35,352 bases of DNA. It comes from Candidatus Agathobaculum merdavium (GTDB lineage: Bacteria > Bacillota > Clostridia > Oscillospirales > Butyricicoccaceae). A model generated the notes under the pieces. That model ran no database searches. It was given only the letters and a program-made list of their open reading frames with translations, and was not told where the DNA came from. The stretch is from positions 1 through 35,352 of the forward strand of contig DXDE01000125.1 of NCBI GenBank assembly GCA_019115615.1, read 5' to 3'. Position numbers and translations under genes: made by a program. Shown piece by piece: positions 1-1,898 of the stretch. The number at the start of each line of letters is the position of its first letter. The first letter of the stretch is position 1.

Positions 1-774
1 GCAGACCCACCAAACCTTTTTGTGCGACCCTGCCGTGACCATCTGGGAAGTCAGGGAACTGTTCAGCGTTGGATGCCACTGTGCCGCGATTTCTGGCTGC
101 GTAGTAGCCAGATCATTGAACCCGGCCAGGACCTTTTTCCCTGCACAGTAAGGACAGCCCGATTCCCGAATGGTCCGCATCCCTACCTCAGCCATATACT
201 CGTGCCCAAGGGGGCAGATCCACCAGACACGCCGTTTGCATGCGGGGGTGACCTGGGACGGCAGCAGCGATCCATTTTTTGTGGGGTGCCACTCCTGCGC
301 CACCTCCGGAAACTGAGATGCCATGTCGTTCGCTCCCGGCATAATCACCCGTCCAGCGCAGACCGGGCATCCAGTCCCGTCCAATGTGCGGGACTGGACG
401 GAAACGCGCCACTCGTGACCCTTTTCACAGCGCCACCAGACTTTACGCTTGGTGCCAGAGGTCACTTCCCCGGGCGTCAGCGTGCCATTTTTCGTAGAGT
501 GCCACTGCTGAGCCAGTTCAGGAAACTGGCTTGCCAGATCATTGCTGCCGAGCGCCACCGCACGGTTTGCACACATCGGGCAACCGCAGCCATCTACACG
601 AGAGCGGATTTTCGCCTGCCATTCATGGCCCAGACTGCACCGCCACCACACCTTCTTCTCACTTCCAGGCAGTACATGTTCCGGAGTGAGCGGAAGATTG
701 GTGTCCTCTTCCCATTGATCCAGCAGCTCTTGCCGCCCTTCCCGTATGCAGAAATCATGCAGGCTTTCCCGCAT
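1..774 (-). CDS. Repeat-rich zinc-ribbon protein (DUF4379/treble-clef type), 3' end beyond window
   Basis: An open frame of at least 258 codons runs leftward from ATG at 774 and leaves the window without a stop. The start is chosen because AAGGGGGA lies 6 nt upstream. The protein holds about four tandem modules of roughly 70 residues. Each has an ND(L/M)A..PE.A..WHPT-like segment, then V-W-W-x-C, G-H-E-W/Y and a C-P-x-C-A pair (Cys46/65/68, 116/136/139, 187/207/210, then Cys258 at the edge). This is the pattern of the probable zinc-ribbon family PF14311, whose members are thought to bind nucleic acid. Some relatives, as I recall, carry a C-terminal nuclease-like domain, but that part would lie outside the window. 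No promoter in the present orientation faces the gene; a terminator faces it instead (853-888). Family assignment is confident; biochemical role is unknown. Confidence 0.85.
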   Translation of the reverse strand, partial: MRESLHDFCIREGRQELLDQWEEDTNLPLTPEHVLPGSEKKVWWRCSLGHEWQAKIRSRVDGCGCPMCANRAVALGSNDLASQFPELAQQWHSTKNGTLTPGEVTSGTKRKVWWRCEKGHEWRVSVQSRTLDGTGCPVCAGRVIMPGANDMASQFPEVAQEWHPTKNGSLLPSQVTPACKRRVWWICPLGHEYMAEVGMRTIRESGCPYCAGKKVLAGFNDLATTQPEIAAQWHPTLNSSLTSQMVTAGSHKKVWWVC

Positions 775-786
775 GGGCAGTCCCCC

Positions 787-816
787 TTCTATGCAGAATC
801 GACATTCTGCATAGAA
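787..816. repeat. Left recombination site of a putative invertible segment
   Basis: Near-perfect dyad: TTCTATGCAGAA (787-798), a 6-bp spacer TCGACA (799-804), then TTCTGCATAGAA (805-816). Two 12-bp inverted arms around a 6-bp asymmetric spacer is the usual plan of a tyrosine recombinase core site. The inner 14 bp (794-807, CAGAATCGACATTC) are the exact reverse complement of 1036-1049. The site lies just upstream of the ribosome binding site of the zinc-ribbon gene. Confidence 0.7.
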
Positions 817-852
817 CCGGCCCTTTCCTTCCAATCAAATGGGAAAAATGGG

Positions 853-888
853 AAAAAAATCGCCCATCTTTCTTGCGGAAAGAGGGCG
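853..888 (-). terminator. Rho-independent terminator facing the zinc-ribbon gene
   Basis: Read on the minus strand, CGCCC-TCTTTC pairs with GAAAGA-(T)-GGGCG: an 11-bp stem with one bulged base and a 5-nt loop, followed by ATTTTTTT. In the present orientation it would stop transcripts running leftward out of the recombinase gene before they reach the zinc-ribbon gene. It lies inside the predicted invertible segment. Confidence 0.8.
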
Positions 889-905
889 AAAGGGCGCGGA
901 AAGCC

Positions 906-943
906 AGACCGCATATGCAAATTATGCCTGCGGTCTATGTTTT
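906..943 (+). terminator. Weak hairpin with T-rich tail, possible terminator
   Basis: AGACCGCA (906-913) pairs with TGCGGTCT (929-936), followed by ATGTTTTTG. The loop is 15 nt and the T-run is short and offset, so function is uncertain. If the segment were inverted, this hairpin would sit between the recombinase gene and the promoter and could insulate the promoter from upstream read-through. Confidence 0.35.
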
Positions 944-967
944 TGCGCTCAAAATCTGAAAGATATC

Positions 968-996
968 TTGTCTTTCATGTCCACACCTGCTATAAT
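968..996 (+). promoter_or_regulatory. Strong sigma-A promoter inside the invertible segment (now facing right)
   Basis: TTGTCT (968-973), 17-bp spacer, TATAAT (991-996), with an extended -10 TG two bases upstream (TGC-TATAAT). Transcription would start near 1003 and run rightward, antisense to the 3' end of the recombinase gene. No plus-strand gene lies downstream. A dyad GAAAGA-N7-TCTTTC (958-976) overlaps the -35 and could be an operator. Inversion would place the -10 at 847-852 facing the zinc-ribbon gene, about 65 nt from its start codon. Confidence 0.8.
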
Positions 997-1035
997 GTCG
1001 GTGTATTATTTCAATATGTAGCCGATTTTGAGACG

Positions 1036-1049
1036 GAATGTCGATTCTG
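1036..1049. repeat. Right recombination site (inverted copy of the left site)
   Basis: GAATGTCGATTCTG, identical to the reverse complement of 794-807, with the same asymmetric 6-bp spacer TGTCGA (1039-1044) in opposite orientation. Its dyad is weaker than the left site's: C-G-GAA / TTC-T-G around the spacer. It lies 3 bp beyond the recombinase stop codon. Confidence 0.7.
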
Positions 1050-1052
1050 TGA

Positions 1053-1898
1053 CTACAACACAAGTCCCAGTCGGTCAATCTCCCGTTGGTGCTCTGTGCC
1101 TGAAGTAATCAGGTAGATGCGTGTGGTTTCGATGCTGCTGTGGCCTAGCAGGTCGGCCAGTTTTGCGATATCCCGGCAGGCATGATAGAAGACTGTGGCA
1201 AACAGGTGCCGCAGGTTATGTGGGAATACTTTTCCCGGTTCCACACCTGCGTACTTGCACAGCCCTTTCAGTTCTGCCCATATCTGTCGACGGCCAAGTT
1301 CCTTTCCGCTTTTGGTGCGAAAAATCGTGCCGGAAGCGGTTTTTTGTTTTTTAGCGTACCTCAGCAGCTTGCGACGCAGCTTTTCGGGAAGCAGGATGGT
1401 GCGGATCTTGCCTTTAAGCGCAATCACTGCTTTGCCATGCTGAGCAGCTTCCACGGTGATATACGGTACTTCGCTGACCCGGATGCCGGTCGCTCCAATG
1501 GTCTCCACCAGAAGTCCCAGTCGTTCCCGCCCCAATTTGCGCGCCGTGTTCAAAAGCCTCTGATAGTCTTCCTTCGTCAGTTCACGGTCGGCATCCCGAA
1601 ACAGGCAGCGCTGAATCTTGAGGAACTTTACCCGGCACTCCCGCAGGTCAAGGAACTCCAGCAGGCTGTTCAGGGCAGAGAGCATAGCATTGACTGTCGT
1701 CGGGGCATAGTTCTGCGCTATAAGATGCCCTTTCCACTCCGAAGTCAGCTCTTTTCTGATCGCACGACCGTCAAGCCAGCGGGCAAATGCCCGGATATCC
1801 CGAAGATATTTCTCCATGGTGGCACGGCTCTTCTCCTCCATCTGAAGATGATGGGCGTATGCTTGGATTTGTTGTTGTGTTAATTGATGATTCTTCAT
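1053..1898 (-). CDS. Tyrosine recombinase (XerC/D-like, probable invertase)
   Basis: A 281-residue tyrosine recombinase, short and Xer-like. It has an N-terminal SAM-like DNA-binding domain (about residues 5-90) and a complete catalytic domain: Arg140 (TGIRVSEV), a lysine in the beta-hairpin LKGKIRTI (162/164), His227-x-x-Arg230 (FPHNLRH), His253 (LGHSS) and nucleophile Tyr262 (TRIYL). ATG at 1898 follows AGGAGGG with a 5-nt spacing. These enzymes cut and rejoin DNA at paired sites through a 3'-phosphotyrosine. The gene ends 3 bp from one of two short inverted sites that bracket a promoter, so its likely job is inversion of that segment (inference). It could instead be the integrase of a small element, but no excisionase, tRNA attachment site or other element genes are visible. 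Confidence 0.9.
   Translation of the reverse strand: MKNHQLTQQQIQAYAHHLQMEEKSRATMEKYLRDIRAFARWLDGRAIRKELTSEWKGHLIAQNYAPTTVNAMLSALNSLLEFLDLRECRVKFLKIQRCLFRDADRELTKEDYQRLLNTARKLGRERLGLLVETIGATGIRVSEVPYITVEAAQHGKAVIALKGKIRTILLPEKLRRKLLRYAKKQKTASGTIFRTKSGKELGRRQIWAELKGLCKYAGVEPGKVFPHNLRHLFATVFYHACRDIAKLADLLGHSSIETTRIYLITSGTEHQREIDRLGLVL

Follow-up and report, generated by a model that had tools for sequence, protein, structure and literature searches.

In the fim system of Escherichia coli (fimE-fimS-fimA), the recombinase gene lies just upstream of the target and is read in the same direction, and the invertible promoter is turned towards the recombinase when the switch is OFF. The locus analysed here, on the 35,352-nt contig DXDE01000125.1 of Candidatus Agathobaculum merdavium (hereafter the window; a complete contig, one of 212 in the source genome), resembles fim in its gene layout and in the direction of its OFF promoter. 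It very probably carries a self-contained ON/OFF invertible promoter (promoter inverton), seen OFF and controlling a surface-protein operon, and a probability of about 0.92 is given to this reading. For fim, the discussion in PMC2784873 reports that termination is linked to the element and that FimE is under orientation-linked control. The two systems differ in that the window has one recombinase, a 281-aa two-domain protein of XerA/C/D-like rather than FimB/E type, and in that the fim target is fimbriae, whereas here it is a surface-protein operon.

The cwpV/RecV switch of Clostridioides difficile shares with the window a XerC/D-type recombinase, an inversion of about 200 bp, an intrinsic terminator and a surface-protein target (PMC2784873). 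However, the cwpV promoter stands outside the inverted DNA and termination decides expression, whereas the window promoter lies inside, and recV is not adjacent to its switch, unlike the window recombinase (PMC2784873). Also in C. difficile, pdcB and pdcC have invertible DNA upstream of enzymes of cyclic di-GMP (c-di-GMP) metabolism, as do two of the related loci described below (L008 and L050); the likeness is one of target class, and the target differs from that of the window (PMC9286219).

The original prediction held this type of switch to be undescribed, which does not stand: recombinase-adjacent promoter invertons are known, gut Clostridia included, according to PMC11892184. In that study of the hCom2 community, invertase group 35 is tied to inverton group 139, of which 32 of 33 are in Clostridia, and reads showed one member changing orientation over passages. 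It also has an invertible segment between inverted repeats beside a tyrosine-type recombinase in Clostridia, a likeness of layout. The description there mentions neither a DUF4379 target nor paired terminators nor the crossover core. A literature search of incomplete coverage found no account of this switch with DUF4379 operons; by title and abstract, the only three papers there that mention DUF4379 concern fungal gene transfer and phage introns.

Proposed recombination sites and promoter of the window

The features of the locus are collected in Table 1. Exact 14-bp inverted copies with a shared asymmetric 6-bp spacer had been proposed at 794-807 and 1036-1049; these coordinates are right, and the spacer is the core TCGACA. 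The 18-bp sites mismatch at 3 of 18 positions, all of them in the arms, and the target-proximal site is embedded in a longer 13+4+13 palindrome (787-816) in the source genome. For inverted repeats of at least 14 bp at a distance of 150-350 bp, a first-order Markov model predicts 0.07 per window, and two were observed. The second (28557/28738) is GC-rich, has no adjoining recombinase and is regarded as a chance occurrence. No repeats were found behind three other tyrosine recombinases of the source genome.

Table 1. Features of the proposed invertible promoter locus, with members of the small protein family in related loci
Feature	Position	Strand	Remarks
Target gene, zinc-ribbon DUF4379 (PF14311)	1..774	-	ATG at 774; cut by contig end
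Target-proximal recombination site GCAGAATGTCGATTCTGC	793..810	-	18 bp; holds one 14-mer copy
Core TCGACA, 6 bp, asymmetric; proposed strand-exchange (overlap) region	799..804	+	partner 1039-1044, other strand
Invertible segment, 240 bp, OFF here	802..1041	.	homologous segment inverted in L008
Intrinsic terminator facing target in OFF state	853..890	-	stem about 860-890, U run 853-859
Second hairpin and T run (940-944), opposite strand	905..944	+	would stop recombinase read-through in ON
Extended -10 promoter TTGTCT-17-TATAAT, TG before -10	968..996	+	top of 3 promoter-like hits in first 3 kb
TATGTAG element in future leader	1015..1021	+	conserved in many relatives; possible accessory half-site
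Recombinase-proximal recombination site ACAGAATCGACATTCCGT	1033..1050	-	18 bp; inverted relative to target-proximal site
Tyrosine recombinase, 281 aa, XerC/D/A-like	1053..1898	-	catalytic residues complete
Members of the conserved protein of about 90 aa	L080:7978-8256, L006:7054-7326, L087:7428-7697, L042:2718-2981, others		alignment A1

The rightward promoter is present as proposed, inside the inverted segment, with 45 nt from the end of its -10 to the crossover centre; the original prediction omitted that, as the segment is now oriented, transcription from it would enter the recombinase gene at its 3' end in the antisense direction. If the segment is inverted about both cores (x -> 1843-x), the -10 falls on the minus strand at 847-852. 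This is 73 nt from the zinc-ribbon start codon, so the leader would be about 65 nt long, as had been estimated. The ribosome binding site of the target, AAGGGGG at about 781-788, remains outside the segment, and the recombinase stop is 3 bp from the right 14-mer and 2 bp from the right 18-bp site; both placements agree with those proposed earlier.

The TATGTAG element is found about 20 nt behind the -10 in the window and in relatives, and resembles a half-site of the other site type found among related loci (ATTATGTAGT).

Crossover signature in related loci

A scan of genome contigs with the recombinase yielded 17 loci (numbered L), and searches at the level of the source genome's genus, family and order added many more. 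In nearly all of the first 15, a stretch of 240-280 bp that begins right after the recombinase stop is flanked by inverted repeats. Two types of site are present across the loci, ACARAAT-N4-ATTYTGT, to which the window belongs, and ACATAAT-N4-ATTATGT. In 45 loci whose sites were paired solely on site score and on the similarity of their arms, every pair proved identical in its central 6 bp (45 of 45), with 25 distinct cores among them; shuffling the partners among these loci gave a mean of 4.1 core matches and a maximum of 12 in 10,000 shuffles. Mismatches between paired sites, counted by position, are zero in the core and rise outside it, in the arms and flanks. The enlarged set comprises 85 loci with enough downstream sequence, 81 of which have a site pair near the recombinase stop at a median distance of 252 bp; 79 of these 81 pairs have an identical core, with 47 distinct cores in all. 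A set of loci left out of the first count gave 32 of 34.

Since the core is identical within each pair despite the existence of 47 cores, it has the properties of the strand-exchange region of a tyrosine recombinase, and the pairwise-matched cores would map this region for an uncharacterised recombinase family. The repeats might instead be terminator hairpins, or hairpins bound by a regulator, that are similar by chance while the recombinase has another function, and the 13-bp palindrome formed by the left site alone would fit such an origin. However, co-variation of the cores needs a mechanism that compares both sites, which hairpins or regulator sites do not explain, and the core identity across the 81 pairs, together with the inverted homologous segments described below, contradicts this origin and leaves it extremely improbable.

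The promoter is also conserved in relatives (CTTG...TGnTATAAT). In the 81 loci, the -10 tends to lie about 35, 46, 57 or 65 nt from the crossover centre, values that differ by about one helical turn. A single conserved chromosomal position for the switch was considered and rejected, the upstream neighbours in the window not being found beside related recombinases.

Orientation of the segment in relatives

With the extended -10 promoter as the orientation marker, 55 of the 81 loci were called OFF, 16 ON and 10 unclear. Segment alignments show the two directions as well. The congeners L169 and L172 have collinear recombinase regions (82%) but an inverted segment (88% identity over 203 bp); antiparallel segments are also seen in L141 and L142, paralogues within a single genome (83% over 214 bp), and between the window and L008 (72% over 139 bp). 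The segments of L006 and L134 also align with that of L008 in opposite orientation, and three loci with DUF4379 targets have the switch ON (L083, L087 and L135). Thus, the comparison of relatives suggested in the original prediction found both orientations rather than a single conserved one, and the locus is best read as an invertible promoter in its OFF state.

Alternatively, the repeats could serve an integrating element or a cassette as attachment sites, given that the XerA/XerC/D-like recombinase bears some resemblance to integron integrases and that the switch is found in different genomic neighbourhoods. However, the segment holds a promoter and terminators but no cargo gene, and its homologues occur in the inverted state; moreover, recombination between inverted sites that share an asymmetric core would invert the DNA rather than excise it. 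Almost no weight is given to this explanation.

Somewhat more weight is due to the possibility that the sites are real but the segment is locked OFF in this lineage, a relic whose target is silent or driven from elsewhere. OFF predominates (55 of the 71 callable loci), the window sites differ in their arms as noted above, and the DUF4379 frame looks degraded in the near relative L134. This is nevertheless very unlikely, as the recombinase is intact with all its catalytic residues, the core, promoter, ribosome binding site and target frame are intact as well, and similar arm differences are common in the family, ON loci included.

Several further points weigh against an active promoter inverton in the window. 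Both orientations are known from relatives, and this species is represented by one genome, OFF only; in the closest relatives the window-type switch is OFF except in L008, where it drives a different gene. The orientation calls depend on consensus promoter scores, and the background of the terminator scan is high, as 41% of mononucleotide-shuffled segments score. Two of the 81 pairs (L144 and L157) have mismatched cores, although they look like wrongly chosen pairs. Finally, the contig ends inside the target gene, and the operon assumed for this organism is extrapolated from relatives. A scan of IMG/VR with the recombinase for the same species in the other state gave no match.

The TATGTA element was also considered as an accessory site that biases orientation, and this was rejected. 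In a first set it was present at 21 of 25 OFF loci and 0 of 8 ON loci (Fisher 3.6e-5), but this was not replicated in fresh loci, either with window-type sites (ON 2/4, OFF 7/10, p=0.58) or with the other site type (p=0.23).

Terminators and the proposed mechanism

The segment encodes hairpins followed by T runs on both strands. The terminator facing the target has a folding energy of -20.3 kcal/mol over a 66-nt stretch (z -3.1), and a 121-nt stretch gives z -4.9. Among relatives, such structures face the target in 43 of 45 segments in the OFF state and in 39 of 45 in the ON state. Judging from these predicted structures, recombinase read-through would be blocked in both states, and the orientation of the promoter alone would decide expression. 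Termination in both directions would allow a promoter to flip without leakage right behind an active recombinase gene.

For the promoter inverton, the following mechanism is proposed. The recombinase would bind both inverted 18-bp sites, exchange strands within the identical core and flip the 240-bp segment; catalysis by the adjacent recombinase, as well as flipping in this organism itself, is inferred from sequence. In the OFF state, the sole strong promoter would face away from the target, antisense to the end of the recombinase gene, and the terminator within the segment would halt recombinase read-through ahead of the target. In the ON state, the promoter would stand about 73 nt before the start codon of the zinc-ribbon gene, and the target would be insulated from the recombinase transcript by the terminator that faces the other way. 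Judging from relatives, the operon so controlled would begin with the DUF4379 gene and go on to encode a small conserved protein and then a large surface protein, and the switch would probably make a cell-surface protein phase-variable. By analogy with the orientation-linked control of FimE, antisense transcription in the OFF state may lower recombinase levels.

Recombinase

The tyrosine recombinase was correctly recognised in the original prediction. It combines the PF00589 (Phage_integrase) and PF02899 (SAM-like N-terminal) domains, and its catalytic residues were located as R140, K162 or K164, H227, R230, H253 and Y262. The nearest solved structures are an archaeal XerC-like protein and XerD. 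It scores under the cut-offs of the curated NCBIfam models for dedicated Xer recombinases and integron integrases, the best being NF040815 (143 bits, cut-off 220), with XerD at 118/330 and integron integrase at 54/265; it is also below the cut-offs of the XerC, XerA and XerS models, and the FimB/FimE-type invertase model PRK09870 gives 22 bits against a cut-off of 221. The recombinase falls into a distinct XerA/C/D-like group.

Target genes and the surface-protein operon

The target protein has at least four DUF4379 treble-clef zinc-finger repeats (PF14311, 237 bits against a gathering score of 24.5), and close relatives share its N-terminus, which reads MRESLHDFCIREGR in L006 and L080. The zinc-ribbon gene had been named as the target of the switch; this holds for the first gene, but not for the target as a whole, which in relatives is an operon that also encodes a small conserved protein and, after it, a large protein of the cell surface. 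In L080, the DUF4379 gene is followed by an overlapping gene for a protein of about 90 aa, a sortase and a Cna_B protein of 2397+ aa; in L006, by the small protein and then a protein with SLH, Big_3 and Flg_new domains. A large secreted-looking protein comes after DUF4379 in L010, L083, L087 and L135, and at other loci surface proteins are driven directly. By Pfam, the surface-protein targets carry SLH, LRR_5, Flg_new, Cna_B, SpaA and VWA domains, and a sortase is also among the targets. A continuation of the DUF4379 gene and the small open reading frame was sought in the other contigs of the source genome, and none was found.

At L008:6340-9534 and L050:7862-9010 the switch stands before c-di-GMP enzymes (GGDEF/EAL or GGDEF). 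At L009:6137-6976 and L041:2616-3473 the switch has another, diverged tyrosine recombinase as its target, ahead of a surface protein, and one recombinase may phase-vary another at these two loci. The switch appears to be a module widespread among the Oscillospiraceae and related gut Clostridia, which are little studied, and it would bring random ON/OFF control to giant surface proteins, sortases and c-di-GMP enzymes, and even to second recombinases.

Two switches with different cores lie about 7 kb apart in one relative (L134 and L135; G385:C1:141000-159500), L134 being OFF before an apparently degraded DUF4379 gene and L135 ON before an intact one. The diversity of cores suggests that several switches in a genome may be kept apart by them.

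Conserved small protein

Eleven members of the protein of about 90 aa can be aligned, with the consensus SLLDLL..Q..C.YLSDL...WNDAL.YLTG and an invariant SDL...WN..L.YL. The gene lies directly behind the switch or behind DUF4379, and in L042, L044, L045 and L048 no surface gene follows it. The 11 strongest matches in genomes of the family all adjoin this type of recombinase. The protein is predicted to be all-helical (pLDDT, the model confidence score, 82); it has no match in Pfam or the PDB, and a fold search with the model in the PDB and viral structures found none. Both this protein and DUF4379, neither with an assigned function, gain a context from the switch.

A role of the small protein in control of the switch is possible but speculative. 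In an extended form of this idea, the locus would be a portable module, in which the protein, made only in the ON state, feeds back on the recombinase, for example, speculatively, by setting the direction or rate of flipping, and in which antisense transcripts from the OFF promoter dampen the recombinase; this we consider rather unlikely.

Variants of the switch

Five loci (L019, L047, L051, L062 and L081) have two or three tandem sites on the recombinase side, and inversions of different length may be possible there. The assembly breaks inside the segment in L005 (FR890833.1), 87 bp after the recombinase, and inside the target gene in the window; mixed orientations or repeats could be the cause of both breaks. 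In L062 (NZ_AP023421.1, Pusillibacter faecalis pMM59_01), the switch and an SLH protein are located on a replicon of 504 kb; this is typed as a conjugative plasmid and could transfer the switch from one species to another.
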